Below are positions 3,387 to 43,936 of a stretch of 64,000 nt of DNA, piece by piece (the first letter of the stretch is position 1; every line of letters begins with the position of its first letter). A program made the position numbers and the translations under genes. The DNA is from Candidatus Poseidonia sp. (GTDB taxonomy: Archaea > Thermoplasmatota > Poseidoniia > Poseidoniales > Poseidoniaceae): positions 1 to 64,000 of the forward strand of contig JADHPT010000001.1 of assembly GCA_016778305.1 (NCBI GenBank). The letters run 5' to 3'. The notes under the pieces were generated by a model. The model made no database searches. It was not told the DNA's origin and saw nothing but the letters and a program-made list of their open reading frames with translations.

Positions 3387-6300
3387 ATGAATGAACAGAT
3401 GGAAACGAAGGCAAACGAGCCAGCTTTCGCATTGGGGTGGCTTTTTGCCCCTCTTGCGGTACTGCTCGCTTTTGCCACCACCAAGGTCGTAGGCATTGAC
3501 TACGATCTCTCGTTGAACAACATGATGCCGATGCTCGTCGTCGCTGCCGCCAGTATGCTGGCCATCGTACCGCGCATGGTTCAAACTTCTCGTCCTGATC
3601 TTCCATCATCATCCATCTCCCTCGTGGTGTTGCTGGTTGCCTTTATTGGCGCTGAAGGTTTGTACAACTTCACAGAAGTTGACGCCGTTGCTGCACTGAT
3701 GTTCGCGTTGGTATTGACCATCGGTTCTATGCTCGATCGTAATGGGCGACATGAATGGAACACTGCGCTCACCTTCTCAGCCGTTGGTTTCTGGCTTGCT
3801 ATTGCAGCCGCAAGCAGTGCCATGGGAGACCTTCCAACCACCTTCGAGCGAGAATCTGGACAATTGGTGTCAACACTCAACCTCGAACGTCAAGCAACCT
3901 TGTACGTGTTCTTTGCCTACTGGACAATGGCTACCGCTGCTGGTCTTCTAGCCGGTGTGATGTCCCGTGGTGTATTGCATCCCGCAGGTCATGACGGGTG
4001 GTTTTCCTTCATGGGCCATCACGATGGTTTCAACCGAAAGGCGTTGCCGCTCATGGTCGCTCTTGGTGTTTGGGTTCTCGCCTTCGCAGGCTCGCTCTGG
4101 CATTTCAATTCGGTAGGCGTCGTAGACCAACTCGGTATTACCGACGAAGCAGGCTACCATGGTTATTACGGCTACTGGTCGGCCTTCTTTACCGGTGTCA
4201 TCGCCTTGATGATCGCCGGAATGGTTGCCGAGCGCTGGTTCACGCGCGCCATGCTCACCGGTTCGATGTGGGGACTTTACCTCGTCTCTTCTTGGTTTGA
4301 GTCTGGAATCTGGTACGCAGAAGAACTTGACGGTTCTTGGGGCGCTTTGATTTGGCTGGGTATTACCTTCTTCATCGGCGTAGCAATCTACACCATCGCC
4401 AATCACGAAAAGTACGGTGGTTGGGCCAACCGTGGCGAACACGAGCCCTCACAAGCCCGCTTGTTCATGCGCTCTCACGGCGCTGGAATGATGGTTGCCC
4501 TTGCGTTCATCATTGGTCTCACCGTTCGTATTCAATGGTATGCTGTACCTTCCATGAACGCCTTCGGCACTGGCCAATGGGACATGACCGGCGGTTCTGA
4601 CCCGTGGTACATGAAGCGAGTTGTGGATTATATCCTCGCAACAAATGCTCATCTGGTCTACGATGCTGACCGATTCTACCCAATCGGAGGCATTAACCCT
4701 CGTCCGCCATTGTTTTCATGGTCGATGGCTGTTGGTGCAATGCTGCTCAAACCATTCATCGCTAACCCTGACGACGCAGTTTGGTTCAGCATGCTCGGTC
4801 TTCCCGCAGTTTACGGCGCCCTTACGGTCTTCCCGATTGCCTCCATGGCAAAGGATCACTTCGGAAAAGGTGCAGGTGTTCTGGCCGCTTGGCTTGTCGC
4901 CTTCATGCCAGCCCACGTTACGCACTCCACATGGGCTCTCGCAGACCACGACTCCTTCGTGATGCTCTTCATCTGTGTCGGGTTCATGTACTGGCTCCGT
5001 GCGGTGAAGTACGCTGGCTCAGCACGTATTACCCGGACAACAACAGCACATCCGTTGTCTTTTGCTCGTGCTTTCAGGGATGTTGCAGTGCACCGCCAAG
5101 CAGCGATGGCCAATGCGATACTCGCTGGTGTTGCCTTCGGTATTGTTGCCCTCGGTTGGAAAGGGTTCGTTGTCGGACCTTCAATCCTCTTCTTGGCTTA
5201 TGCGCTTCAAGTGGCCCTCAACATGTTCCGACGCAGAGATTCAACCACGCTCAGCGTGATGTTCCTTACCATGTTAGCCGTTATCTTCGTGATGGTCCTT
5301 CCGTTCTATGGCCACCCACAGTTCGACCTTATCTTTGACGGCACAGGCTTGCAACCCTTCTTGTTTATCTTCATCTTCACCCTGGCAATTGCCTTCGTGA
5401 CGACAGGATTCCGTGACAAGCCTTGGTTGCTCGTTTTGGGGACGCTTGCAGGCTTGGCAACGGTCTTCTTTGTGATTTTGTATGTCCTGAAGGCCTTGGA
5501 ATTTTCCAACGCATGGGATGTCTTGTTCACCGGTAGTGGGTATTTCACCAAGACCAAGATTTTTGGAACGGTTGCTGAAGCAAACGCTCCGAACCGCGCT
5601 CAACTCTTTGCTTCCTTTGGACCGATTACATTCCTGCTCGCCCTGATCATGGGTGGAGGACTGCTGTGGAAAGGAATGCGTCATCGTCAAGCCACATCGT
5701 TGGTATTTGGTGTTTGGGTCTTTGCGGCTACCTTCATGGCTTGGAACGCTGCTCGTTTCATGTTCAATGCAACACCGGTCATGGCAATTCTAGGAGCAGC
5801 GGGTATTCTCGCATTCTGGCAGTGGGCTGGATGGAGCGGTTTGGTCCGATCTTGGAAGAAATTTGGTATCCGAACACCTGCTGACCGAATCACAGCAGCT
5901 CGTAAAGCCGTTTGGCGAACTCCGCAATTTTCAGCGGTCTTCCTCGTGATGATCATGATCTTCGGACAGCAGGCGACCTACGGATTGGACTCTGCTATCC
6001 CGAGTACCTCGAACCAAGAGGCTGAAATTGACGAACGCATTCACAATATCGTACCTGATATCCTTCGCTTTGATGGCTTGGGTTTCTCAATTCTTGACAG
6101 CAGCACCTACGACGGCCGAGAATATCTCGGCAGCTTTGGGTCATCCTTCAACGACAATGGCTGGAATTCAGCCTATGCATGGTTAGCTGACCAAGATACG
6201 AATATGACCTATTCAGATCGCCCTGCCTTCGTTTCATGGTGGGATTATGGTTTCCAGGCCATGAATAACGGAAAACACCCGTCCGTCTCGGATAACTTCC

Positions 6301-9300
6301 AGTCAGGAATCCCTGCAACAGGTAACATGCTCCTAGCACGCAGCCAAGAGGACTTGACAGCGATGTTCATTTGGCAATTGGCCGAAGGTGACCGAACCTA
6401 CGCAACAGGTGACGGCGAATCTTACACATTCACGCCTCAATTTGAGCGCACCGTTGAGGGATACCTCAGCGAGGATCAGTGGAATGATTTTGAACACATG
6501 CAAACGAACTTTGGTGAAGGCATGCTTGAATTCATTGAAGAACGCTCGTTCCAGGTTATCAAGACCAACCGGAATGTAGTGATGGCGGAGGGATATCCAT
6601 CCACTGCTGGTATCTTCGACACCGACAGCAATACCTACCGCATCTACAAAGACGGCGTTCAGATTCCGTGCACAGATGAACTTTCAACCAGCTGTTTGGG
6701 TGACGATTGGAGTTCACAAGACCAAGCAGACATCACCTTTGGTAATAACATCCGCACGGGCGAAGATACAATCGAAAGCAAGACACACGTGATTTTCGGG
6801 GATTATTGGTATACCAGCGACCTTGTTGATGAATACCTTTCAGTCTCAACATCAATTCATCGAAAGAATGCCCGTTTGGCCATGGCCACACAATTGCTAA
6901 CCGATGCATTTGATGCCAACCCTGATGCTACGATCCACGACCTCTACGCTGACCTCATCAACCTCGAAGGTCTGTACACCGTTCAAGATTTCAACGGTCT
7001 CCCCGGAGAAACCATCGACCGTGACCACGAGATACGTTACTTCGCTATCGACGACCGACTCTACCCACGTGCTGGCCGCTATACGGCTGATGCAAACTAC
7101 AACCGTGGACAGCCAATGGGTATTTTCGGTGCTCCAACCATCCTATCTGGACAAGATGTATCCACCTACATGGATGAGGTCTACGAGACCACACGTGGAG
7201 AATTCCAAGATGAAATGTCTCGAGAAGAAGTCGATGAAGCCATGCAAAAGGATTTCTTAAACCAACAATCTGGTGCAGACATTGACCCGCTCATGGTCAA
7301 CGACGTTCGGGTTGATCACAATGCAGCATTCTTTGACACCATGGTGGCACGCACCTATGTTGGCTACGGAGCATCTACGCTCGGTATTTCAACCGGTTCA
7401 TCCAATCCACAACCGGCTCAGCACTTCGGTCAATCCGGTTCACCCGGTACCATCTTGAATCAAGCTCTACCGTTGCCAGGTGCCATGATGAACAACTTTG
7501 TTATCGCAAATTGGTACAATGAAGATGCGAATGTTTCAATTCAACAAACCAATACGCTTGTGAAGATTTTGAAGTATTACCCTGGCGCAGAAATGAATGG
7601 TCAAGTAACCATGAGCGACACCGGTGAAGGCTTGCCAGGTGTGCGCCTCTTGATTGAACGTGACGCCTTCTCAGGTGAAGGTGCAGAAGATCTTGACGAA
7701 GACACCTATTGGGTTCCAATCGGCTTTGTTGATGCTGATGATGACGGTGAATACACCTTCATTGTTCCTGCAGGACGTATCCGAGTCACGGCCTTTGCCG
7801 GTGATTACGACCCAACTTCGACCCGTGACGAAATCCGTGACGGCTCATATGCAGACCGTTTGGGAGATATCTTGACCGACACCAATGAGAACCGTGAAAT
7901 CAACCAAATCACAGCACTGTTGGGTAATGTAGCAAACATGACCTGGCTCGGTGAAACTCAGGTGAACGTCACAGGCGATCAAGCCGACCGAATGACTGAC
8001 ATGACAGAATCTATTGATCTTGCAATTCAAAGCAGCGGTGTCTCCGGAACAGTCGTATGGAGCGGAGATGAATCCTTTGCGGGTGACCCTATTTCCGAAA
8101 CCACCTTTATCCTTCGAAACATTTGGTCAATGACCGATAACTACACCGTTGAGACAACCAGCGGTAGTTTCACCAGCGATGAATCACGTATCCTTCAAGG
8201 AACTGGAGAGGCGACGTTCGTCGAAAACGGAACCTTCGACAGTGAAGGTATAGCCATCGCTCGCAACTTTATTGGTACCTTTACTCGAGACATCGGTAAC
8301 GAACGTACCTTCTTCGCTAACGGTACGTGGGACGGCTACGGAACCATTGAAGCCACGTGGACCGAATCAAACGACATCGCGTCGTGTGAATTTGATAATG
8401 ATTCACTTCCAACCATGCCAGCAAACGAAACCTTCTGTCTGGTTGACGATACGGGCGACCTGCCAATCTACAAGTTAGAAGGCGAGGTCAATGCCACAGG
8501 CAGCTTTACGTCAGAAGGAACCAGTATCCTTACCCGTACCTACGGTGATTACGACACCGGCCAAGGAGAAACCATTGAAGGAGCAGGTTCCTTTGCAGGT
8601 GTTGGTACATTCAACGGCACAGGTCTCTTCGTCGGTATCGGGTCCTTCTCAGGTCAAATGGTCGAACCCGGTTCATTCTACAAGACCGGGCTGCTTCCAG
8701 GAACTTACAACATGATTGCACAACTCGACAACGGAAAGGAAGTTCTTCTTCCAGACCCGGTTGAAATTGGTATTGAAGCAACTTACGACCTGAACATGAA
8801 CATGCCAGGAGGTATCTTTGAGGATGTCCTCAAGGACATGCACGATGAAGTCTTGGCCAACAAAACCATTGAATTGATCGACGTAGATCTCGGTGAAGAA
8901 TACAAAGTTCTCATTCCAACCGATGAAAACGGTTCCTTCAGTTACGGACCAATTGCGAAGGGGCAATACTACTACCGTGTCGACGTTGATCAAGATGGTT
9001 GGTATGACCTGAACGCATCAGCGCTGGTTGACGAAACGGTCACCAACATCACGATTTTGTTCAATGTTCCAGATACTGCGGATTTGACCCTCAACTTGGT
9101 TTCACCTGTTGACCCCTTGACGCAAGAACCCCTCTTTGACGTGACGAATCGAACCATCACCTTTGACAATACAGCGGGTCTTCTTGACCCAATCAACGTC
9201 ACATCTGACGAATCCGGAGAGATTTACGTTGAATTGTTCTATGGTGAATGGGAAATTCGTGATGACGTCAATCCAGAATTTGTTCTGTTTGACCAAATCG

Positions 9301-12300
9301 TTCTCGATGTTGGTGATGACGAAGTTCAACGAGAAGTCACCTATGCAGAAGCTGCTTGGGTGAACGGGACCATTCGAAACCACAACATCTTGACTAACTA
9401 CGCAACATGGGAAGAAACTGAGCCAGATCGATTCAACACGTCTGAACCAACCACTGCACTGAGCATTGAGTTCCGTGCGGGCAATCTTGTATTCCCTGCT
9501 GTTACTGACTCAAGCGGTCAATTCTCCGTACGTGTTCCATCTGGATTTGACTACCACATGACTTCACAACGGGCATTTGAGCCCATTGGATACGGTCAAT
9601 TAGTGACCGTTGAAGTTGGTGAGGACATCGACATGGGCACCATCTACGCTACCACATTGGTAACGGTGCCTGGCGTGATTTATCTCTATGACAACTCGTC
9701 GTCGAAGTGGGATAATTCCCTACCTCTTTGGCAAGCCCCAGTCGTGTTGGCTACCAATGAAGACGGACTTGAATGGCGAACCGATGCGGGTGATAACGGT
9801 GAGTTCGTATTTGCTTTGCCTGCTGGAACATGGGACATCAGTATGGAAGATGAGTTGCTCAATGCAACCAGCGTTGCTGATATTGATGTGAATTTCTCTG
9901 CCGTTGAGGAGCTCTCATCGCAGGAACTCTTTGTACATCCAAATGCCGTGGAATTAACCATGAACATCTTCCTCAATTCAGACGAAGATGGTACGTTTGA
10001 AAATGGGACAAAGGTGACACCTGGTTTCTACTTGCGACCAATGGATGAGAACCGCGATTCACTTTACTTCACTTCAGAAGATTACAGCGAAGACGGAATC
10101 ATCACGGTTTCATTGACCCCGGGTGGTTATGATTTGCTCTTCAACCGAACCACGGCCGATTCTGAAAATGCTACCGATTACGACCTCGTTGCCGAGATTT
10201 TCTTTGATGCGATTCAAGTCGGACTTGACGAATTTGATCAAGCCTTTGAGGTCCCACTACGCAACACCTACCTCGTTAACGGTACTCTGACCAATGTTTC
10301 TGGAGACGGTATTGCCAATGAGTTCTTGCTTTACAATGAAGCAGAGGAAGAATGGTTCAACGTTGGTTCTGACGAAAATGGAACCTTTGCGGCCTATGTT
10401 CCCGCTGGCGAGTGGTTGATTATTGTCGCACCCTTCATGCAAGACAATGTTACTGAAACCCTCCGTCAACCTCTGTCAGTCGGTGCAACTTCGGACCGTC
10501 TCAATCTTGATCTGAACACAGAGGAAAGCGTGCATGTGACCTTGCAACTGAAGGAATTGCTAACTGAATCAGCACTTTCGGACATGAGCGTCACGGCAGT
10601 GAGCAATGACGGATACGGTAACATCACCTTCGAAAGAACCGATGATGACGGTAACTCCTCTGAAATGATGATGCCGGGAAGTTGGAGTCTCTACTTGAAC
10701 CGCACTGTCGGGACGAAAATGTGGTTCATGGACACCAGTAGCGAACCGTTCACAACCGATGATGCTGACAACAATACGTTGATTCTTGACGTAAATTACG
10801 CTGCATTGGAAGTTGAAATTGGTGGTAAAATCTATTGGGATCTCGATAATAACAGTCTACCAAGCATGAACGAAGGTATTCCAGAAATGAATGTCACCCT
10901 TCAAGGAACCAATAATTCCGAGTACTCAACCGTCGTTCAAAGCGATGAGCAAGGAGTATGGCGAGCCTTTGTCCCAATCCGTGACGTGTACAACGTTTCG
11001 GTGACAAAGGATGGTTTCGAGACCGTTTATTACGAAACTGACAACACAACTGGATACATGGTCTTGGACAGTCCCGATTCAAAGGATATTGAAGTTTCAG
11101 CTGGTTCAGTTCAGGTGACTGGATCGGTGACCGACCAAATTGATGCAGCTCGCCTTGAGGGCGCTTCGATTGTTCTCTATCCCGCTGTCGGTATCGAGCG
11201 GGACATCATTGAACTCACAGGAACCGTGGTTGATGATGTTCTCGAATGGAATGCAGAAATTCAACCGGGTGAATGGATTGTCATCGTGACCGATACGAAT
11301 CCTGGTCCGAATGGAGGCGGTGTCGCCATTGGTATGCTCGATGCTTCTGTTGCCAACGGTGGAAACATCTCGATGGTGATGGCGCTTGGCGGATATGTCG
11401 ACCTCGCAACCTCTTGGAACGATATCGCACAGGAAAGCCACCACGCTGGATCTGATGATACAGAAGGAGCAGCCATGCTACAAGCACCGGTTGACATCGA
11501 AGTGACCTTTGGTGAGATGAGTTGGATGATGGACGTACCAGCATCCGGAACCCTCACAAAGTTGCTCCCCGAGGGCAGTGTTGCTTTCGACAGCGAATTT
11601 GTCACGGTGCAACATGATGACGCACTTGAGATGGAATACTATGGTGGTCAAACTGCTAACGTGAACGCAGACTCTACGATTTCGACGACGTTGAACTACA
11701 ACCGTCGTGTCAATTCAGACTTGGTTTTGGAATACAACAATGCCTCCTTGGTCAACGCAACCTCTGTTGACATCGCTAACCCAGAAGTCATGGCCCGTGT
11801 ATCCTCTACAAACGAGAGCAACTACGATGTCATCAGCTTTGACATCGATGTGACCTACAACGGTACCGAAGTGATGGATATCTTCTCTGTCTCTGCTGAG
11901 ATGGGCCTTGCCCAAGATTCTGGATTGTGGACGGTTGAAGTGTACAATACATCGAGCGAAGCCTACGAAAGCAGCACTGACGTGAGCCTTGGTATTGGTG
12001 ATAACGAAACTTCGGCTGTCGCCACTGCAACGGTAAGCATTCGAGTAACGCTGCCTTCGGTTGAAGACGCTTGGCACTTGGATGATGCACATCGTGTCAC
12101 CCTACGTATGGAAAGCGAACTTGGCGAAGCCAGTCAATCCTCTGTCAAGGTCATTGTGCCTCAAAACTTCGGATTCAGCATCGGTGAAGCAACTGAGGTC
12201 GTCGGTATCTCCCCTCTTGTGGAGCGATCGTTCTCCTTCGAGGTCACCAATGATGGAAACGGCCAGGATACATTCAGCATTGAATTGCTTGAAAGCGGTG

Positions 12301-12941
12301 TGCCGGCAGATTGGTCGGTCACTCCAATGAATACCAACCTGACATTGGCAAAGGGTGAAACACGAACGCAGCAATTCTCAGTCTTCGCTCCTGCGTCCTT
12401 TGACGGTGGTGAATTTGACCTGACTGTCTATGTTATCGGCAGTGATGAAGAACAACCTGAAGAAATTGATGTTACCGTCCAGTACGCTCAGATCAAGCTC
12501 AATATCGATCAAGGTGCTATCGTCACTGAATCCGGCCAAATCGCTGGTGTATCCGGCGATGTCGTGATCCCCGTTGAAAACCTTGGTCTTCTCGATGCTA
12601 CATCGGTGATTGTCTATCTTACTCCTGATGGTGAGGCGGAGCGATCCGTGACGATTTCCGTTCCCGCTGAAAGCACCGTGAACGCGGTCTTTGACGGCAT
12701 CACACAAACGCAAGGAAACAAGCGTTACGATGTTCGAGTCGAACTTGCAGGTGAGGAAGCGAATAACGTTGAGGAAATCACTCCTGACAACGGCGTATTT
12801 GACCTATCGATCGAATACAACACTGCAACTTCATCTGACGGTGATTCAATCTGGCTCACTTTGGCGATTGTAGCACTTGGTTTGCTCGTGATCTACGGCG
12901 GTGTGCGCACAGCACGTAGCCGTGGTGGAACGAAGTTCTGA
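3387..12941 (+). CDS. aglB: AglB/STT3 oligosaccharyltransferase with giant extracellular extension
   Basis: Transfers a lipid-linked oligosaccharide to Asn of N-X-S/T sequons on the outer face of the membrane. The catalytic motifs seen are the first acidic motif in SDPWYMKR (Asp405), the second DXD motif DHD at 520-522, a TIXE-like TVAE at 728-731, and WWDYG at 951-955 followed by DNFQSG. An extra block of about nine to ten membrane segments (residues 1-350) precedes the STT3 core. After the usual C-terminal globular domain (to about 1400) come roughly 1750 more residues of carboxypeptidase-regulatory-like and CARDB-like beta modules. These end in a second anchor at about 3154-3172 and a short Arg-rich tail. 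AglB proteins are usually about 600-1000 residues, so this 3184-residue form is exceptional. The extension holds more than forty N-X-S/T sequons by eye. No internal stop or frameshift is seen. Confidence 0.92.
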   Translation: MNEQMETKANEPAFALGWLFAPLAVLLAFATTKVVGIDYDLSLNNMMPMLVVAAASMLAIVPRMVQTSRPDLPSSSISLVVLLVAFIGAEGLYNFTEVDAVAALMFALVLTIGSMLDRNGRHEWNTALTFSAVGFWLAIAAASSAMGDLPTTFERESGQLVSTLNLERQATLYVFFAYWTMATAAGLLAGVMSRGVLHPAGHDGWFSFMGHHDGFNRKALPLMVALGVWVLAFAGSLWHFNSVGVVDQLGITDEAGYHGYYGYWSAFFTGVIALMIAGMVAERWFTRAMLTGSMWGLYLVSSWFESGIWYAEELDGSWGALIWLGITFFIGVAIYTIANHEKYGGWANRGEHEPSQARLFMRSHGAGMMVALAFIIGLTVRIQWYAVPSMNAFGTGQWDMTGGSDPWYMKRVVDYILATNAHLVYDADRFYPIGGINPRPPLFSWSMAVGAMLLKPFIANPDDAVWFSMLGLPAVYGALTVFPIASMAKDHFGKGAGVLAAWLVAFMPAHVTHSTWALADHDSFVMLFICVGFMYWLRAVKYAGSARITRTTTAHPLSFARAFRDVAVHRQAAMANAILAGVAFGIVALGWKGFVVGPSILFLAYALQVALNMFRRRDSTTLSVMFLTMLAVIFVMVLPFYGHPQFDLIFDGTGLQPFLFIFIFTLAIAFVTTGFRDKPWLLVLGTLAGLATVFFVILYVLKALEFSNAWDVLFTGSGYFTKTKIFGTVAEANAPNRAQLFASFGPITFLLALIMGGGLLWKGMRHRQATSLVFGVWVFAATFMAWNAARFMFNATPVMAILGAAGILAFWQWAGWSGLVRSWKKFGIRTPADRITAARKAVWRTPQFSAVFLVMIMIFGQQATYGLDSAIPSTSNQEAEIDERIHNIVPDILRFDGLGFSILDSSTYDGREYLGSFGSSFNDNGWNSAYAWLADQDTNMTYSDRPAFVSWWDYGFQAMNNGKHPSVSDNFQSGIPATGNMLLARSQEDLTAMFIWQLAEGDRTYATGDGESYTFTPQFERTVEGYLSEDQWNDFEHMQTNFGEGMLEFIEERSFQVIKTNRNVVMAEGYPSTAGIFDTDSNTYRIYKDGVQIPCTDELSTSCLGDDWSSQDQADITFGNNIRTGEDTIESKTHVIFGDYWYTSDLVDEYLSVSTSIHRKNARLAMATQLLTDAFDANPDATIHDLYADLINLEGLYTVQDFNGLPGETIDRDHEIRYFAIDDRLYPRAGRYTADANYNRGQPMGIFGAPTILSGQDVSTYMDEVYETTRGEFQDEMSREEVDEAMQKDFLNQQSGADIDPLMVNDVRVDHNAAFFDTMVARTYVGYGASTLGISTGSSNPQPAQHFGQSGSPGTILNQALPLPGAMMNNFVIANWYNEDANVSIQQTNTLVKILKYYPGAEMNGQVTMSDTGEGLPGVRLLIERDAFSGEGAEDLDEDTYWVPIGFVDADDDGEYTFIVPAGRIRVTAFAGDYDPTSTRDEIRDGSYADRLGDILTDTNENREINQITALLGNVANMTWLGETQVNVTGDQADRMTDMTESIDLAIQSSGVSGTVVWSGDESFAGDPISETTFILRNIWSMTDNYTVETTSGSFTSDESRILQGTGEATFVENGTFDSEGIAIARNFIGTFTRDIGNERTFFANGTWDGYGTIEATWTESNDIASCEFDNDSLPTMPANETFCLVDDTGDLPIYKLEGEVNATGSFTSEGTSILTRTYGDYDTGQGETIEGAGSFAGVGTFNGTGLFVGIGSFSGQMVEPGSFYKTGLLPGTYNMIAQLDNGKEVLLPDPVEIGIEATYDLNMNMPGGIFEDVLKDMHDEVLANKTIELIDVDLGEEYKVLIPTDENGSFSYGPIAKGQYYYRVDVDQDGWYDLNASALVDETVTNITILFNVPDTADLTLNLVSPVDPLTQEPLFDVTNRTITFDNTAGLLDPINVTSDESGEIYVELFYGEWEIRDDVNPEFVLFDQIVLDVGDDEVQREVTYAEAAWVNGTIRNHNILTNYATWEETEPDRFNTSEPTTALSIEFRAGNLVFPAVTDSSGQFSVRVPSGFDYHMTSQRAFEPIGYGQLVTVEVGEDIDMGTIYATTLVTVPGVIYLYDNSSSKWDNSLPLWQAPVVLATNEDGLEWRTDAGDNGEFVFALPAGTWDISMEDELLNATSVADIDVNFSAVEELSSQELFVHPNAVELTMNIFLNSDEDGTFENGTKVTPGFYLRPMDENRDSLYFTSEDYSEDGIITVSLTPGGYDLLFNRTTADSENATDYDLVAEIFFDAIQVGLDEFDQAFEVPLRNTYLVNGTLTNVSGDGIANEFLLYNEAEEEWFNVGSDENGTFAAYVPAGEWLIIVAPFMQDNVTETLRQPLSVGATSDRLNLDLNTEESVHVTLQLKELLTESALSDMSVTAVSNDGYGNITFERTDDDGNSSEMMMPGSWSLYLNRTVGTKMWFMDTSSEPFTTDDADNNTLILDVNYAALEVEIGGKIYWDLDNNSLPSMNEGIPEMNVTLQGTNNSEYSTVVQSDEQGVWRAFVPIRDVYNVSVTKDGFETVYYETDNTTGYMVLDSPDSKDIEVSAGSVQVTGSVTDQIDAARLEGASIVLYPAVGIERDIIELTGTVVDDVLEWNAEIQPGEWIVIVTDTNPGPNGGGVAIGMLDASVANGGNISMVMALGGYVDLATSWNDIAQESHHAGSDDTEGAAMLQAPVDIEVTFGEMSWMMDVPASGTLTKLLPEGSVAFDSEFVTVQHDDALEMEYYGGQTANVNADSTISTTLNYNRRVNSDLVLEYNNASLVNATSVDIANPEVMARVSSTNESNYDVISFDIDVTYNGTEVMDIFSVSAEMGLAQDSGLWTVEVYNTSSEAYESSTDVSLGIGDNETSAVATATVSIRVTLPSVEDAWHLDDAHRVTLRMESELGEASQSSVKVIVPQNFGFSIGEATEVVGISPLVERSFSFEVTNDGNGQDTFSIELLESGVPADWSVTPMNTNLTLAKGETRTQQFSVFAPASFDGGEFDLTVYVIGSDEEQPEEIDVTVQYAQIKLNIDQGAIVTESGQIAGVSGDVVIPVENLGLLDATSVIVYLTPDGEAERSVTISVPAESTVNAVFDGITQTQGNKRYDVRVELAGEEANNVEEITPDNGVFDLSIEYNTATSSDGDSIWLTLAIVALGLLVIYGGVRTARSRGGTKF

Positions 12942-12968: not shown

Positions 12969-13004
12969 AAGGGTTCTTGTGCCCAACACGGTAGAGTGAA
13001 AGCC

Positions 13005-14216
13005 ATGGAGGGACTTCGTGACGTTGAGTATCTTCCAGAACCAACGGACCGGAGCATCGTTTCGGCTGTTGATCCAACGGTACTTGACTTCCAAAACGAA
13101 TGGCGTTCGGAAGTTATGGGGTGGGCTCCTGTACAAGTTGAACCCATCGTGAGGAGTCACCGCTCCCGTGGAACCATCACAGGGATGATCGCTTTTGCAG
13201 TCTTTGTTTCCGTCAGTCTTCTGGCCTGGCAAAACCAATGGCTTGTGGTTGCATTACCGCTTCCAGATTCAGAGTGGGCTTACGAAGAAACAAATATTCG
13301 CTCCTTACAAGAAGACGGTTGGAGTGGTGAAGGTGTACGATTGTGCATGGTGGACACGGGTATTGACGCCACTCATGAAGCCCTCATGGATGTTGAGGTC
13401 GTCTTCAAGGACCTTATCGGTACATCAGTAACGCCAATGGACTACGGGGTTGTTGCCCACGGAACCCTGATGTCTGGAATTCTGCTGGCAGGGCAGCATC
13501 AACAAGGGGCTGCTCCTAATGTGACCTTTGCAATGGTAGCGGCCCTCGAGGACAACGGAAATGGTGAAAATGCAGGTTTGGATTCAGATGTGGCAGATGC
13601 GGTGAAATGGTGCCAATTTGAATTCGAGGCTGATATCATCTCACTCTCTCTGGGCGGAACTCCTGCCGTTGGGGAAAACCGGGAAGGAGCGTCTGCGTCT
13701 GCGGTTCGTCAAGCGACAGACGCTGGCGTCTATGTCGTTGCTGCCGCTGGAAATGACGGCCAAGATGATGATGGTGATGTAGCCTCGCCAGGAAGTGTCA
13801 CGCTAGCCATTTCAGTGGGGGCTACGCAAAAGTCCGGTGAAATTTGGGCAAATTCCTCGCTTGGAGGACCGATGACAAATGCAGGGGAGTTCCGTTTAAG
13901 CCCGCATCAAAAACCAGAAATCGTGGCGCCAGGGCAACGGATCATCAGTACAGGGGGCCAAAATTTGTGGTATTCGAGCAGTGGAACATCAGATTCGACC
14001 GTCTTCGTTGCGGGAGCACTTGCACTGATCCTCGAAGCGAATCCGAACCTAAAACCTCAACCTGATGGAGATGCCTCATGTCTCATCCATGTCAAAGAAG
14101 CGTTGCAACAATCAGCGCGTACACAAGGTGCTTCTGAACATGACGAATACTTCGGTTACGGCTCACTTGATGCTAAAGCTTGGATGGAGCAATCACGCCT
14201 AATTTCGGACTGCTGA
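13005..14216 (+). CDS. Membrane-anchored subtilisin-family (S8) serine protease
   Basis: Predicted extracellular serine endopeptidase. About 45 cytoplasmic residues precede one transmembrane helix near residues 58-80, so the catalytic domain is held outside the membrane as a type II protein. Numbered from the ATG at 13005, the catalytic residues are Asp117 (VDTGID), His152 (AHGTLMSG), the oxyanion Asn250 (AAAGNDG) and Ser329 (SSGTSDSTVFVAG). The last motif departs from the usual GTSMATPHVAG after the Ser. A GTG three codons upstream is an alternative start. The gene follows aglB by 63 bases on the same strand. Its substrates are unknown. A second S8 protease lies at the window end. Confidence 0.9.
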   Translation: MEGLRDVEYLPEPTDRSIVSAVDPTVLDFQNEWRSEVMGWAPVQVEPIVRSHRSRGTITGMIAFAVFVSVSLLAWQNQWLVVALPLPDSEWAYEETNIRSLQEDGWSGEGVRLCMVDTGIDATHEALMDVEVVFKDLIGTSVTPMDYGVVAHGTLMSGILLAGQHQQGAAPNVTFAMVAALEDNGNGENAGLDSDVADAVKWCQFEFEADIISLSLGGTPAVGENREGASASAVRQATDAGVYVVAAAGNDGQDDDGDVASPGSVTLAISVGATQKSGEIWANSSLGGPMTNAGEFRLSPHQKPEIVAPGQRIISTGGQNLWYSSSGTSDSTVFVAGALALILEANPNLKPQPDGDASCLIHVKEALQQSARTQGASEHDEYFGYGSLDAKAWMEQSRLISDC

Positions 14217-26002: not shown

Positions 26003-26190
26003 GTGAACAAAAGATACCCGTCGCGGGAGGGACTTGAACACACCGCTTCTCTCTCCCACAGTCGGCTTGTTTTTGCATGGTTTGAGGGTTGAGGAAGCCA
26101 GCAATGTATGAACAATGTTCCATCAGCCTCATAAGCAATCTTTCAAAGGTGTTCACGGGGCGAAGCGTATGTTACGCATGGGGCAGTAAT

Positions 26191-29100
26191 ATGAGGAGAA
26201 GTCAATCTACACTGTTGACGACCATAGCGGTCATCTCAAGCCTTCTTTTCATGTCCCAATTTCCAGCCATCTCAAATGTGGCGAACATCCATCCTGACGA
26301 CACTACCCAAACACCTCCACCCAACACCGACACGGATGGTGATATGATCCCTGACGTCCATGAAACGCTCTTTGAAGAATGGATGAACTGGACCTCTGTC
26401 GACGGACGTGATGTATTCCTTCAAGGCATGGACAAAAATAACGCCTCGGATGCATCCACTGATTTTGATCGTGATGGATTGAACGCAACCGAAGAGTTTT
26501 GTTGGCCCTATCCTGCCAACTGTACATCACCTGGATTTCCTCGAGGTTTAACGGGACAACTGGATGAAAATAACGACCGAATCTACCTTGACCCTCGTCT
26601 TTCCGACACCGATGGTGATGGAATGCCCGACGGATATGAGGCGTATATGTGCCTCCGAACAGGTGGTTTTGACACATCAGCACAACGTTACAACTGCGGA
26701 TCCTTTGACCCACTCAACAACAGTGATTTCACCCTCGATGGGGACAACGATGGCTTTGATGTTGACCGAAACGGCGAAATGAGTGAATCCGAACGGTATA
26801 CCGCTCCCGAAGAATACGCCTACGGAACTCCACTCAACTTTACGACAGAGCTCGACGGTTTGTGGTGTCACGCAACCCTTCCAGAGGGTTCAGTTCTCAA
26901 GAGCTGGCCCTACATTCAATCAGGGGCAAATGCGTCCTTCCATAATCTTCTACCAGCCTGCACCACCAATTCAACCGCTCCAGTCGGCGAAGATATGTGG
27001 CTTGGAACCGACCCGCTTCTTGACGATTCGGATCGCTATTATTGGGATGGTTTCTCAATTCGCCCCTTGTATCCATCCTTCGGTGACGGTATGCCCGATG
27101 GGTGGGAAGTTCATTTCGGACTGGACCCCCTCAACCGTAGCAATGCACTTGCCGACCCTGACCGAGACGGCTGGGATACAAATCGTGATGGTGCGATTTC
27201 TGCCGACCTTGCTCGAACGGACACGGCCATGGATTTCGGAGAAGCCCTTTCCACCCTGCAAGAGTACGGCGTTCATTTCGATGAGGGTAATACGGTTTAC
27301 CCGGGACTGAAGTCAACACCACTCGGGGAGGGCACGGATTACAACGTTATGCCACTGGTCTACGATGCGATAGAAGATGAAATGGCCGTCATGCACCACG
27401 ACATACGTGCGCTTGATGAGCAAGATGGAGATCTTTACGTTATGACAAAGTATGGTATTTCAGTACTCAATTTAGAGGAATCTTCCCAATACCATCAATG
27501 GATGCCCCAAGGCGTGGAAATTCACGATGGATTGTTGGTCCGCGCAAACGGCATACCCTACGCCCTTGCTCTCGCTACGACGGCAGGTTTTGGCCTTGCT
27601 CCGCTTTTGGCAGATGGTTCACTCGCCAATCTGGACTCATGGGATTGGAGCATGGTCGGTGAACTTCACGCCCTGTCCCTTCTCCAAGGCACGGACGGAA
27701 ACCAACAGGTGATCGGTCTTGGGCATGCAGGTGTTGGTGGAATCATCGACATCTCGTCGCTCGGATCGATCAGCGAAACCTTCGCTCTCGGGCAAGGTTT
27801 GCGTGCTGGTCTTGAAACAGCTAACGCATCGGTCACGGACATTGAACACGGCTCTGTCGGAGGCTCAACACTCGTTCTTTTCGTAGCTACCGACCGAGGC
27901 CTCATGACGGTTGAAACAGCTTCGGCCCGTGACGAGGCTATTGGTGAATGGCGTTTCTTCTACACTCAAGAATCAACGGGCATCTCACCTGACGTTGATG
28001 AATTGCGCAGTTTGCCGCTCGGTACTGTTGGCAATCCAGCAGAAGTGAGAGACATACTTCTTGACGGTCCTTCGTCAAACAATGCTCAATCTCTATGGTT
28101 TGGAACACCAGCGGGATTGCACAAGATGAATCTCGTAGAGGATACAATCGAGCACAGTGGGCTCCTGTTGCATCCGGGTGTGGACGGTACATTATCCAAA
28201 GAAACCAATAGTATTCAATCGATTTACGTCACAGGTGACGAATTGCTGATTGGTTCAGATTGGGGCATGTGGGCGATTGCCGGTGATTACACCGCCGTAT
28301 ATGGGCTTCAGGATCAGACACGACTTCCGGGTGAAATTACTGCCATCAGCACCATGCTCGTTGATGGGAATATGACCATTTTTGCAGGAGCCTCTCCGGG
28401 ACGCTACGCGAACTTGCAACTCATCGATCCGGGCGCCAATGATTCCGATGCTGACGGCATGCCAGACGGCTGGGAAGTCATTCACGGACTGGACCCCACT
28501 GACCCTTGGGATGCACTTTATGACACCGACGGGGACGGTCTTGATCTCGACCAATCTGGTGATATGAATTTGGAGCGCTTGTGGACCAATCTCGATGAAT
28601 TCCGTTACGTTCAATCAACGCCTGAAGGCTACAATTCAACCGACCCCCGCGAGGGAGATACCGACGGTGACGGATTGGGAGACGGTGCTGAATACTTCGG
28701 ATTCTTCTTTGAAGAATCGAATCTCTGGTGCCATTATGACGTCCAACTTGTCTACATTTGCAACGACGCTGCAGGCCTCGCAGCCAACGACACCTATCTG
28801 CAATATGCCAATATTGACAGCAATACCGATCCCACAAACCACGATTCTGATGGCGATGGTATGCCTGATGGTTGGGAGATTGAACATCGCCGATGGGTGG
28901 GCGCAACCTTCACTGGAGGAAATAACTGGAGTTTAGACCCTCTACGTGCTGAAGATGCAAACTGGGACGCAGACGGTGATGGCTTGCCAAACCTTTGTGA
29001 ATATCAGTGGTCCATTGTGCGATTGGTTGGTCTCAACGGGGATTTACTCGCCGAGTACGGCGAATCCCCTGAAGCCGTAGCCAACTGGTCTGTAGCCGAC

Positions 29101-31935
29101 CCCAATGCCATTGATTCGGATGGAGATACACTTCCCGACGGATGGGAATCCAAAGGCTTGTGCAGTTGGGACCCTTCTCGCAAAGGTGTTAATCCGCTCA
29201 ACGGGTCTGACGCCTTTGAGAACCCAGACGGTGACGGATACGATATCAACAGGGACGGGAGCATCTCATCGGACGAGGCTTTTGTGAACTATCTCGAATA
29301 TCACATCCGTAGCGACCTCTTTAGCGGCAACCAGACACTTGATGGAGTTGAGTTGCCAAATGGCTTCACAACGAATCTTTTCCAGAATATCTCAGAATAT
29401 GGATTGCCTGAAGCCAATTTTGGCGAACGCGCCTCGGGGGCACTCGCAGTAGGGCAATCATCCTACAGCATTGGTGCAGCGGATCCATTGGATGCAGATT
29501 CGGACGACGACGGTATGCCGGACGGGTGGGAAATTTGGTTTGCCCGCTGGGACTTGCTCGAAGATGAATGGACTCTCAATCCAATGGACACTTCAGACCG
29601 TTGGGGTGATGCCGATAACGACGGCATGACCAACTGGGAAGAGTACAACTCCATTTCCCCATTGTATTCCCAAACGGATGCCAACCGCTCATCGCCTCAA
29701 TGGTTTGTTACCACGATCGGTCAAGCCTATGCACTCCAACAATGGCCCGGTATTCCAACCGATTCTTCCTTTGGTGATTTCATTTCCCAGGATCAGATCA
29801 ACGCTACAGGTTGGACCACCGACCCGAACAATGTCGACACTGACGGAGACGGTATGCTCGACGGGCTTGAATTGCTCTTCACGACCTGGAACGTCTCTGC
29901 CAATATGTGGACGCTGAATCCACTGGTCGCAGGGGACGGCGACTTTGATGGGGACGAAGACGGACTTATCGACCGCCAAGAATTTGCCCTCGCGGTGGAA
30001 CAACCAGACAACGGTATTAACCACCCAAGCGACGCGCCACTCTTGCACGTCGATGGTGATTATCAACAACCTACTGAAAAAGCACAGCGTGTCTTCAACA
30101 TCCTCATTTCAAAGGAAACCCGCGGTAAACGGCTCCTCAACGATTTCAATGCATGGCAGCAAGGTGAGCCACCCAATGCCTTCATTGAGGTCATTCTTGG
30201 CATGACGGATCCAACCATTGCTGATACCGACGGTGATGGCATGTACGACGGCTTCGAGTACTGGTTCACCTCTTGGGACCTTGAAGAAAACCGATGGGCG
30301 ATGAATCCTCTTATCGACGGAGACGTGAACTTGGATTCAGACGGAGATAGTTTTGACTGCAACGAAGACGGTACCATCGACGTCAACGAAACTTTCAGCA
30401 ACTTACGTGAATGGGAATCCAGAACGTGGGGGAAATACCTGAACCGAGACACTGTTCCCTCTGGAATCATTGATTTCGGAGAGGATGCCATGGCCGCCTA
30501 CCAGGAAGAACTCGGCTATTCACTGATTCAAGCCCAAAGCGCACTTTACCTTGATTTCGTGGAAAAGGGACAAGACTCTCAGGATCGAATGGCTAAAATC
30601 AACACCTATGATAGCGAAAATTTCAATCGGAGTCTTCGAGGTGTGGCCGATCCGACCCACTCTGATTCCGATAGTGATGGAATTCCAGACGGTTGGGAAT
30701 ACTGCTACGCGACATACGGCATGGACGATATTACGACCATCAATCATTGGGCAGCCAACCCCCTTAACCCGTGGGACGTTAACTACGACGGAGACCATGA
30801 CGGATGGTACGATCGAACCAGCTTTGATACCCCTGCCGAACAAGGCACATGGGAGAATCGGGTCTTTACACCATCTGGGCAACTCATCCAGAATGGACTG
30901 GGAGACCTTCCGTTCACGAATTTCATGGAGTACGGTAACGAGACACGCCCTGACCTCAACGACAGCGACGAGGACAGTCGTACTTTCGTGACGACCGTCG
31001 TGAACGGTGTCGTGACCTCTCACCTACGTGATTACAATTATTCCGATGGACGTGAGGTGTTCAAGTACGGTTCCAATCCGAGTGATAACGACACGGATGG
31101 CGATATGCTCCCTGACTGGTATGAATACAAAATGGGATGGAACGAGAACAATGACAATTTCAGCACCAATCTTGAGATCCGGGTTGTTTGGATCGACGTT
31201 GCCACAGGTGGTCCTTGCGATACGAGTACAACGTCCTGCTTGCCGTTATCACAGGATGGCTCAGGAGGCACACTCAGTCGCCCCGATCTGGAATTCACCT
31301 GGTTTACGTTGGACCCCTCCGACCCGAACGATGCTAACTTCGACCCTGATCAAGATGGGAATTGGGATTGTTCAGGGGCAGGGTGCACCTACGAATCATA
31401 CACAAATTTCCAAGAATTCTATGCCATTACAACCAGTGATTATGCATCTCCAAATGCAGTCCGGCTGAGTGGATTGACCCACGAAGGGGCTCCCGTGACG
31501 GAAGGGTGGCAATTCAGAGCAGCCTTGTTGGGGCTCGGCCAAACAAATGAACTGAACCTCAATTATCTGAAACTTGACAAATATGCTGGCATGGACCGTC
31601 AATATGGTTATATCGTGGACGATGGCGACAGTAATTTCTTGATTGTTGACCCCTCTGATGACGTCGTGTTGATGGCTGGCAATCGGACCGACGCATGGGA
31701 GATCTACTATTCTGGCTCACCAAACACGCCTCCGGTACGGAACGTAGGTGAGCATGAGTTCGGCTGGTATCTTTTGGATTTCGATGATGATCACCTCGCT
31801 GAGGGCAGCAGTCCAATCAATTGGGATACTGATGGGGATTGGATGAATGACTGGTTTGAAGTCCGAGATGATGAGGAAGATGGAATTCGCGGTGACTCCT
31901 CGCCAATCCGGTATGATTCAAGGACCACCTTTTGA
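26191..31935 (+). CDS. Giant secreted Asp-repeat (thrombospondin type 3-like) protein
   Basis: A 1914-residue exported protein with a signal peptide and no C-terminal anchor. About fifteen copies of an acidic calcium-binding-type motif, D-[TS]-D-G-D-G-[ML]-P-D-G-W-E and variants, are spread through the chain. They often alternate with a second block containing W-x-x-N-P-L and D-x-D-G-D-x-x-x-x-x-E. This resembles thrombospondin type 3 or EF-hand-like loops that need Ca2+ to fold. A region of about 360 residues (roughly 390-750) without repeats has beta-propeller-like strands, for example LWFGTPAGLHKM and LLIGSDWGMWAI. The ATG at 26191 places Arg-Arg before the signal core. Longer starts exist. 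The role is unknown. A Ca2+-stiffened stalk or adhesin is plausible in seawater. How it is held at the cell is not visible. Confidence 0.82.
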   Translation: MRRSQSTLLTTIAVISSLLFMSQFPAISNVANIHPDDTTQTPPPNTDTDGDMIPDVHETLFEEWMNWTSVDGRDVFLQGMDKNNASDASTDFDRDGLNATEEFCWPYPANCTSPGFPRGLTGQLDENNDRIYLDPRLSDTDGDGMPDGYEAYMCLRTGGFDTSAQRYNCGSFDPLNNSDFTLDGDNDGFDVDRNGEMSESERYTAPEEYAYGTPLNFTTELDGLWCHATLPEGSVLKSWPYIQSGANASFHNLLPACTTNSTAPVGEDMWLGTDPLLDDSDRYYWDGFSIRPLYPSFGDGMPDGWEVHFGLDPLNRSNALADPDRDGWDTNRDGAISADLARTDTAMDFGEALSTLQEYGVHFDEGNTVYPGLKSTPLGEGTDYNVMPLVYDAIEDEMAVMHHDIRALDEQDGDLYVMTKYGISVLNLEESSQYHQWMPQGVEIHDGLLVRANGIPYALALATTAGFGLAPLLADGSLANLDSWDWSMVGELHALSLLQGTDGNQQVIGLGHAGVGGIIDISSLGSISETFALGQGLRAGLETANASVTDIEHGSVGGSTLVLFVATDRGLMTVETASARDEAIGEWRFFYTQESTGISPDVDELRSLPLGTVGNPAEVRDILLDGPSSNNAQSLWFGTPAGLHKMNLVEDTIEHSGLLLHPGVDGTLSKETNSIQSIYVTGDELLIGSDWGMWAIAGDYTAVYGLQDQTRLPGEITAISTMLVDGNMTIFAGASPGRYANLQLIDPGANDSDADGMPDGWEVIHGLDPTDPWDALYDTDGDGLDLDQSGDMNLERLWTNLDEFRYVQSTPEGYNSTDPREGDTDGDGLGDGAEYFGFFFEESNLWCHYDVQLVYICNDAAGLAANDTYLQYANIDSNTDPTNHDSDGDGMPDGWEIEHRRWVGATFTGGNNWSLDPLRAEDANWDADGDGLPNLCEYQWSIVRLVGLNGDLLAEYGESPEAVANWSVADPNAIDSDGDTLPDGWESKGLCSWDPSRKGVNPLNGSDAFENPDGDGYDINRDGSISSDEAFVNYLEYHIRSDLFSGNQTLDGVELPNGFTTNLFQNISEYGLPEANFGERASGALAVGQSSYSIGAADPLDADSDDDGMPDGWEIWFARWDLLEDEWTLNPMDTSDRWGDADNDGMTNWEEYNSISPLYSQTDANRSSPQWFVTTIGQAYALQQWPGIPTDSSFGDFISQDQINATGWTTDPNNVDTDGDGMLDGLELLFTTWNVSANMWTLNPLVAGDGDFDGDEDGLIDRQEFALAVEQPDNGINHPSDAPLLHVDGDYQQPTEKAQRVFNILISKETRGKRLLNDFNAWQQGEPPNAFIEVILGMTDPTIADTDGDGMYDGFEYWFTSWDLEENRWAMNPLIDGDVNLDSDGDSFDCNEDGTIDVNETFSNLREWESRTWGKYLNRDTVPSGIIDFGEDAMAAYQEELGYSLIQAQSALYLDFVEKGQDSQDRMAKINTYDSENFNRSLRGVADPTHSDSDSDGIPDGWEYCYATYGMDDITTINHWAANPLNPWDVNYDGDHDGWYDRTSFDTPAEQGTWENRVFTPSGQLIQNGLGDLPFTNFMEYGNETRPDLNDSDEDSRTFVTTVVNGVVTSHLRDYNYSDGREVFKYGSNPSDNDTDGDMLPDWYEYKMGWNENNDNFSTNLEIRVVWIDVATGGPCDTSTTSCLPLSQDGSGGTLSRPDLEFTWFTLDPSDPNDANFDPDQDGNWDCSGAGCTYESYTNFQEFYAITTSDYASPNAVRLSGLTHEGAPVTEGWQFRAALLGLGQTNELNLNYLKLDKYAGMDRQYGYIVDDGDSNFLIVDPSDDVVLMAGNRTDAWEIYYSGSPNTPPVRNVGEHEFGWYLLDFDDDHLAEGSSPINWDTDGDWMNDWFEVRDDEEDGIRGDSSPIRYDSRTTF

Positions 31936-42814: not shown

Positions 42815-43936
42815 GTGGCTGACAAACGAGACTACTACGAGGTGTTGGATGTCGACCGTTCGGCCAGCGAAGGCGACCTGAAAAATGCTTTTCGAAGGCT
42901 TGCCAGGAAGTATCACCCCGACCGTAGCACAGAAGAAGACGCTGAAGATCGGTTCAAAGAAATCCAAGAGGCATATGCGATTCTCTCGGATTCGCAAAAG
43001 CGTGCTCATTATGACCGATTTGGACATGATGGCCCTCAAGGCAATCCCTTCGGCGGATTTGGTGGAGGCGGCTTCAATATCAATTTGGAAGACATTCTCG
43101 GAGGGGATTTCTTCTCGTCCATGTTTGGTGGTTCTTCCAGGCGCCGAAGTCGGAGAGGCTCGGACATTCTTCTTCGTCACTCTATTGACCTCGTTGACGT
43201 GTTGAACGGCTCCGACCAGGAGGTCACACTGGACTTGCCGAAACCCTGCGTCTCTTGCGACGGTACAGGAGCAGATGGAGGCGACTTGGTGACCTGCTCA
43301 CGATGTTCGGGCCAGGGTCAAGTACGCGTTCGTCAACAAGTTGGACCCTTCATCCAGGAATCCGTTCAACCTTGTGAGGCCTGTTCAGGCAGAGGAAGTG
43401 TCAGCGAGAAGTCATGTGATGCGTGTTCCGGAAAAGGCCGCACTGTGGAAAGCTCCACATTGCGCTTTTCTGTTCCACTAGGTACCGAGGACGGCAGCCG
43501 TCTTCGGATGCGTGGCAAAGGCGAACCAGCCCCTCAAGGTCAGGGAGAACCCGGTGACCTCTTCATTGAACTTGAAGTAGAACAGCACCCTTGGTTTGAA
43601 CGAAGTAATTCGGATTTGATCATGTCCCTGCCCCTTGGGTATCCTGACCTCCTTCTGGGAACGAGTATCACGATTGACCATTTGGACGGTAAACCACTGG
43701 TTGTCAAAGTCCCCTCCAACTCAAATTCAGGTGAAACCATCGAAATCAAAAAGCGAGGTTTGCCAAGGCAGCGAGGCAGCGGACGTGGAGATGTCATTGT
43801 TCTGTTGAAACTGCACATGCCGTCGAAGGTTCCCAAAGCGGCTAAGAAAACAATGGCTACTCTCCGAGATGAATTGGGTCCCAAGGACCAACAGCAAAGT
43901 ATCATTGATGACGCTCGGGAACGCCGAAATTCATGA
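42815..43936 (+). CDS. dnaJ: Chaperone DnaJ (Hsp40, type I)
   Basis: Co-chaperone that delivers unfolded proteins to DnaK and stimulates its ATPase. All type I parts are present: J domain with HPD at residues 34-36, a Gly/Phe-rich linker (about 75-110), four CxxCxGxG zinc repeats (CVSCDGTGA, CSRCSGQGQ, CEACSGRGS, CDACSGKGR), and the C-terminal substrate-binding domains. The 373-residue length is normal. The start is a GTG with AGGGGG upstream. DnaK and GrpE are not in the window. In archaea this chaperone set is generally attributed to transfer from bacteria. The last six bases overlap the convergent surface protein gene. Confidence 0.95.
   Translation: MADKRDYYEVLDVDRSASEGDLKNAFRRLARKYHPDRSTEEDAEDRFKEIQEAYAILSDSQKRAHYDRFGHDGPQGNPFGGFGGGGFNINLEDILGGDFFSSMFGGSSRRRSRRGSDILLRHSIDLVDVLNGSDQEVTLDLPKPCVSCDGTGADGGDLVTCSRCSGQGQVRVRQQVGPFIQESVQPCEACSGRGSVSEKSCDACSGKGRTVESSTLRFSVPLGTEDGSRLRMRGKGEPAPQGQGEPGDLFIELEVEQHPWFERSNSDLIMSLPLGYPDLLLGTSITIDHLDGKPLVVKVPSNSNSGETIEIKKRGLPRQRGSGRGDVIVLLKLHMPSKVPKAAKKTMATLRDELGPKDQQQSIIDDARERRNS

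Follow-up and report, generated by a model that had tools for sequence, protein, structure and literature searches.

The window (the whole 64,000-nucleotide stretch of Candidatus Poseidonia sp. DNA that was analyzed) contains, at positions 3387-12941 of the forward strand, a single open reading frame with an ATG start, no internal stops, and a product of 3184 amino acids. purD lies upstream, and 54 bases downstream begins a gene for an S8 subtilase (12996-14216), followed by a gene for a 1490-amino acid surface protein with Ig domains; a TPR/AAA protein is also encoded among the neighbors. The purD, subtilase and 1490-amino acid genes are syntenic in most orthologous loci. Given these neighbors, the possibility that the locus is a glycosylation gene cluster was rejected.

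The large frame encodes the four motif groups of STT3 oligosaccharyltransferases (OSTs; SDP/GxD, DxD-type, TIxE, and WWDYG), all of which are conserved in the orthologue alignment. As claimed in the initial annotation, they sit in one uninterrupted frame, with D405 in GGSDPWY, D520/H521/D522, T728-E731 as TVAE, and W951-G955 as WWDYG. The DK/MI motif (kinked helix, Ser/Thr pocket) has variant forms that need structural alignment to be located (PMC3703281). Residues ~368-1000 were placed in AglB/STT3 by Pfam, NCBIfam, and PDB searches. Pfam STT3 (PF02516) matches residues 403-747 with an E-value of 9.1e-12 and 45.6 bits, above the membership cut-off of 24.5, and a profile built from 26 cores matches AfAglB-L (3waj/5gmy) with an E-value of 1.9e-36 over AfAglB-L residues 10-576. 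The best NCBIfam match is archaeo_STT3 (TIGR04154; residues 368-989, E 4e-48), but its score of 164 bits lies below the full-length cut-off of 450 bits and the match covers profile positions 2-575 of 831, and for this reason the giant protein is filed as AglB/STT3 in the wide sense only. No other STT3 was detected in the assembly that contains the window.

The predicted transmembrane catalytic core occupies positions 4449-6176 (residues 355-930, with GGSD405P, D520HD522, and TVAE731), as delimited by PF02516, TIGR04154, and the AfAglB-L profile. It is followed by a C-terminal globular domain of the central-core type (6177-7586; residues 931-1400, with WWDYG at 951-955), whose profile matches to the AfAglB C-terminal domain structures 3vu0 and 3vgp are restricted to the WWDYG region. 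The same forward-strand frame then continues through an arm of transthyretin/CarboxypepD_reg-like beta domains (7587-12386; residues 1401-3000), assigned from Pfam and Foldseek matches and from counts that include 44 sequons, a CARDB-type domain adjoining the anchor (12387-12836; residues 3001-3150; PF07705, E 5e-6; 0 sequons), and a membrane anchor recognized by hydropathy (12846-12902; near residues 3154-3172, WLTLAIVALGLLVIYGG), after which only a short basic tail remains. The many beta modules and the second anchor that had been proposed for this frame are thus present. The proposed extension of ~1750 residues is also found as a long arm, but its start lies nearer residue 1400, and it therefore measures ~1,780 residues with the anchor.

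Ahead of the core lies an N-terminal membrane extension (3387-4448; residues 1-354) with ~10 transmembrane helices, assigned from an AF2 model and from homology within the order. The model, which covers residues 1-410 (pLDDT 74.6, pTM 0.75), places 10 membrane helices before the first OST helix (TM1). The block is homologous in both Poseidoniales families, and is in frame with the core wherever the contig allows. Outside Poseidoniales, it was not found in 196 genomes of the phylum, and the possibility that it exists there as a separate gene was rejected in the same 196 genomes; a Foldseek search against the PDB for a fold relative gave a best E-value of 0.19, with a query TM of at most 0.22 among the matches listed. 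The extra membrane block of ~350 residues noted initially is therefore real, is present in none of the solved AglBs, and is confined to the order Poseidoniales, without a detected sequence or fold relative. Its role is a matter of speculation; this order-specific addition probably serves as a docking site for a partner or as a brace for the core. A different membrane block, with ~8 helices, precedes the same OST core in residues 1-240 of locus L105 (genome G087, family f13). Homology between the two blocks was rejected (hhalign probability 4.5%, aligned at OST TM1 only), and the L105 block probably arose independently.

An assembly artefact, or a fusion of neighboring genes, was ruled out by the orthologues. 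Among 54 copies with both ends inside their contigs, drawn from many independent metagenome assemblies, 51 encode 3,145-3,321 amino acids (median of all 54, 3,185). The other three are interrupted, as is a further copy from a single-contig genome, and all four resume in another frame. The breaks lie at differing residues (~1531, ~1660-1689, ~2000, and ~1401-1431), so that no stop or gene boundary recurs. Accordingly, the stop or separate gene after about residue 1400 that the initial annotation had named as evidence against its reading was not seen in independent assemblies, and the single frame stands.

We found the arm and terminal anchor through most of the phylum Thermoplasmatota, in which the full-length reading took in 60 further loci. 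Frames around the core are ~3.1-3.3 kaa long in Poseidoniales (marine group II); in the remaining Thermoplasmatota families, most measure 2.0-2.6 kaa. The C-terminal helix is present in 64 of 65 Poseidoniales and in all 33 long forms outside that order, where a median of 1,592 residues follows WWDYG. Seven short forms, of 1,196-1,427 amino acids, are without the helix; their neighbors include no split-off arm frame, and a short form accompanied by a separate adjacent arm gene was rejected on this basis. In the core tree, read without fixing a root, the short forms make up two supported clades amid long forms, so that the arm was either lost there or gained separately. The long anchored extension is therefore a departure from the solved and characterized AglBs, as had been suggested, but is standard in most Thermoplasmatota; the contrast with AglB at large rests on solved structures and family models, and lengths were surveyed within Thermoplasmatota. 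Since arm and anchor are standard in the phylum, the shared domain order that the initial annotation had listed as counting against a departure from the family is found inside Thermoplasmatota. No earlier account of the giant form of AglB was found in the open-access literature that was searched.

Judged by its profile matches, the arm is built from an array of transthyretin-like beta domains; this assignment is new here, as is the sequon enrichment described below. Pfam searches of 20 arms sampled over the phylum recovered CarboxypepD_reg in 19, SpaA in 13, NOMO_5th in 11, and the EMC7 beta-sandwich in 5, and the arm in the window matches CarboxypepD_reg, NOMO1-like, SpaA, and NPCBM_assoc families, with CARDB and NPCBM_assoc near the anchor. 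Its composition is acidic (16-19% D/E). Between the two Poseidoniales families, the arms are ~25% identical with few gaps (15-28% beyond residue 1800), and arm length and domain count are more tightly conserved than arm sequence. In an AF2 model of residues 931-2130 (pTM 0.33), many domains are locally confident and the global arrangement is not predicted. One glycine-rich stretch at positions 8187-8690 (residues ~1601-1768; GTGEATF..., GSFAGVGTFNGTGLFVGIGSFSG) is predicted, with low model confidence, to form very long antiparallel strands that differ from the adjoining beta sandwiches.

Foldseek searches with the model of residues 931-2130 returned beta domains of pilins and adhesins (E 1e-9 to 1e-5) and one S-layer protein, and the arm's beta domains resemble in this respect the CnaB/SpaA-type domains of Gram-positive pilins and adhesins (SpaA, BcpA, PitA). 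Many of the latter are sortase-linked and stabilized by isopeptide bonds, and they are not known to be fused to a glycosylation enzyme. These matches, together with the sequon-rich, acidic character of the arm and the CARDB and NPCBM_assoc domains near its anchor, would fit an S-layer-like or adhesive surface element for which the OST is the membrane base, coupling glycosylation to display. We consider this quite unlikely, because the gene is single-copy and keeps its length (51 of 54 orthologues), the arm is doubly anchored, in contrast to a free adhesin, and its domains are generic.

Searched against the PDB, the arm profile ranks NOMO2 first (E 2.5e-28, with several tandem alignments; the first non-NOMO match is at 6.5e-6), which raises the possibility of a substrate-recruiting or translocon-tethering device, comparable to NOMO beside Sec61. 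In this reading, the transthyretin-like domains would attach to the secretion channel or to nascent chains and deliver acceptors to the core, and the sequons of the arm itself would be incidental. NOMO, in the eukaryotic BOS complex, resembles the arm in having successive transthyretin-like (prealbumin) domains on the non-cytosolic side of the membrane and one C-terminal helix, and the NOMO_5th and EMC7 matches in sampled arms agree with this likeness, as does the shared place of BOS and OST behind Sec61 (PMC9630114). However, NOMO is a separate, non-enzyme protein, and its likeness to the arm is at the domain level only; BOS components are described as absent from prokaryotes (PMC9630114). 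Moreover, the generic CarboxypepD_reg is the wider match, and individual tandem alignments with NOMO reach only ~1e-10 to 1e-3. NOMO probably ranks first because few solved chains contain so many domains of this type. We regard a NOMO-like role as unlikely, and the sequon counts and catalytically dead relatives described below also bear on it.

To evaluate glycosylation of the arm, sequons were counted against expectation. Residues 1401-3000 of the window protein contain 44 N-x-S/T sites, compared with ~17 expected, and the arms of 65 Poseidoniales contain 2858, compared with 1124 expected (2.54-fold; 3.0-fold for N-x-T and 2.0-fold for N-x-S). Controls of the same composition in these arms gave 1.05 for S/T-x-N, 1.04 for D-x-S/T, 1.06 for E-x-S/T, 1.12 for Q-x-S/T, and 0.75 for N-xx-S/T, and the N-x-S/T ratio in Poseidoniales cores is 0.76. 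In 32 other Thermoplasmatota, the ratio is 2.28 for the arm and 1.89 for the core, which includes the extracellular globular part. Across 52 orthologues, 27 sequon columns are conserved in 60% or more of the sequences, and 26 of these are within the arm. Such a pattern would be expected if glycosylation of the arm were under selection, and is silent on which enzyme carries it out. When the comparison was made on other proteins of the window, an excess was also seen in the predicted surface proteins at 26089-31935 (31 sequons, 16.8 expected) and 43931-46144 (10 sequons, 3.7 expected), which are likely to be further targets of N-glycosylation; the arm may therefore be just one target of many.

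A natural control is provided by family f16, in which a homologue is present in 33 of 33 genomes tested, with 30 of the sequences read. One of these (L118) keeps all motifs, and another (L248) is cut at the contig start. The remaining 28 (L128-L132 and L225-L247) have neither DHD nor WWDYG intact, D405 is replaced in 25 of them, and only two retain E731, which is otherwise absent or substituted. They represent single-copy homologues of AglB in which the catalytic motifs are lost and a long anchored arm persists. The C-terminal helix is present in 28 of the 30 sequences; the exceptions (L118 and L234) reach the end of their contig. The 26 f16 genomes examined yielded no second STT3. In the dead arms, N-x-T is at 1.10 of expectation (166 vs. 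150.7; reversed control, 1.11), while in their live kin it is at 2.87 (59 vs. 20.6). N-x-S does not separate the two (1.51 and 1.55), and its persistence at about 1.5 in the dead arms means that glycosylation does not account for all of the N-x-S signal. On these counts, N-x-T selection accompanies an intact active site, and the arm is retained without one, which suggests that family f16 has lost N-glycosylation and kept its AglB as a pseudoenzyme. A second, independent loss of catalysis is likely in L121 (G216, family f36), where the DHD, E731, and WWDYG positions are altered and N-x-T is at 8 vs. 6.9 expected. The dead sequences mostly belong to one radiation in one family, and therefore represent few independent losses.

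Because f16 arms persist without catalysis, they cannot serve in that family to supply the core with acceptors, and the NOMO-like reading also leaves the strong N-x-T enrichment unexplained. The arm might instead be neutral baggage, in which beta domains accreted in an ancestor and persisted because they are harmless. Weak arm conservation between families beyond residue 1800 and the two short-form clades are in line with this, but the arm is kept in frame throughout the phylum, the length hardly varies within the order, sequon columns are conserved, and the arm outlasts the loss of catalysis. All of this speaks against neutral baggage, which we strongly disfavor as very improbable.

In the reading we consider probable, the protein is a membrane OST bearing a stalk that is densely N-glycosylated and anchored at both ends, and the structural job of this stalk is separable from catalysis. 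From homology and the intact motifs, the core would move a lipid-linked glycan onto N-x-S/T of secreted proteins. Past the globular domain, the chain would form a stalk of transthyretin-like domains outside the membrane and return to it via the single C-terminal helix. Sequon enrichment suggests that the stalk is a dense N-glycosylation target, probably of the same enzyme, acting in cis or on a neighboring molecule. Standing beside the site where secreted proteins are glycosylated, such a glycan-clad stalk or scaffold would keep room free or position partner proteins on the outer side of the membrane. Because stalk and anchor persist in family f16 although the active site is destroyed there, the job of the stalk would be independent of catalysis. 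The roles proposed in the initial annotation (delivering substrates, holding the complex at the S-layer, or acting as a scaffold) are not separated by these data, but arm-specific sequons and retention of the arm after active-site loss favor a glycosylated stalk or scaffold over mere substrate delivery. We infer OST activity, arm glycosylation, self-glycosylation, and the stalk or scaffold role from sequence. A fuller version, in which the OST carries a fused NOMO-like, self-glycosylated scaffold of the translocon or envelope that outlives the enzyme, one family having a dead, arm-bearing AglB, seems doubtful to us.

AglB is the central enzyme of archaeal N-glycosylation, and structural work rests on forms of less than 1,000 residues such as AfAglB-L of Archaeoglobus fulgidus (PDB 3waj/5gmy/7e9s), a chain of 875 residues whose membrane part is followed by CC, IS, and P1 units (PMC3703281). 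The giant form shares with AfAglB-L the membrane core, the SDP/NDP, DxD-type, TIxE, and WWDYG motifs, and the central-core domain, and adds ~1,780 residues including the anchor, plus ~350 membrane residues in front. A phylum that includes the abundant MGII archaea of the ocean uses a giant AglB, with an arm that appears to be selected for N-glycosylation sites; in an MGIIb genus, an OST gene was among the transcripts more abundant while the genus was active (PMC9723583). Comparison of live and dead forms offers a direct test of the arm's role apart from catalysis, the dead lineage points to a family without N-glycosylation, and a NOMO-like arm would bear on the origin of the domain arrays around the eukaryotic secretion channel.

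Variants of the core were also observed. In L122 (G328, family f46), an additional membrane segment lies inside the OST core, ahead of the globular domain. In L115-L117 (family f26), GRxHTPE stands in place of ADHDSF, the second acidic motif, while WWDYG and TIAEA are kept and a strong excess of sequons is seen (N-x-T at 3.35); GRxHTPE is possibly an alternative metal-binding arrangement.
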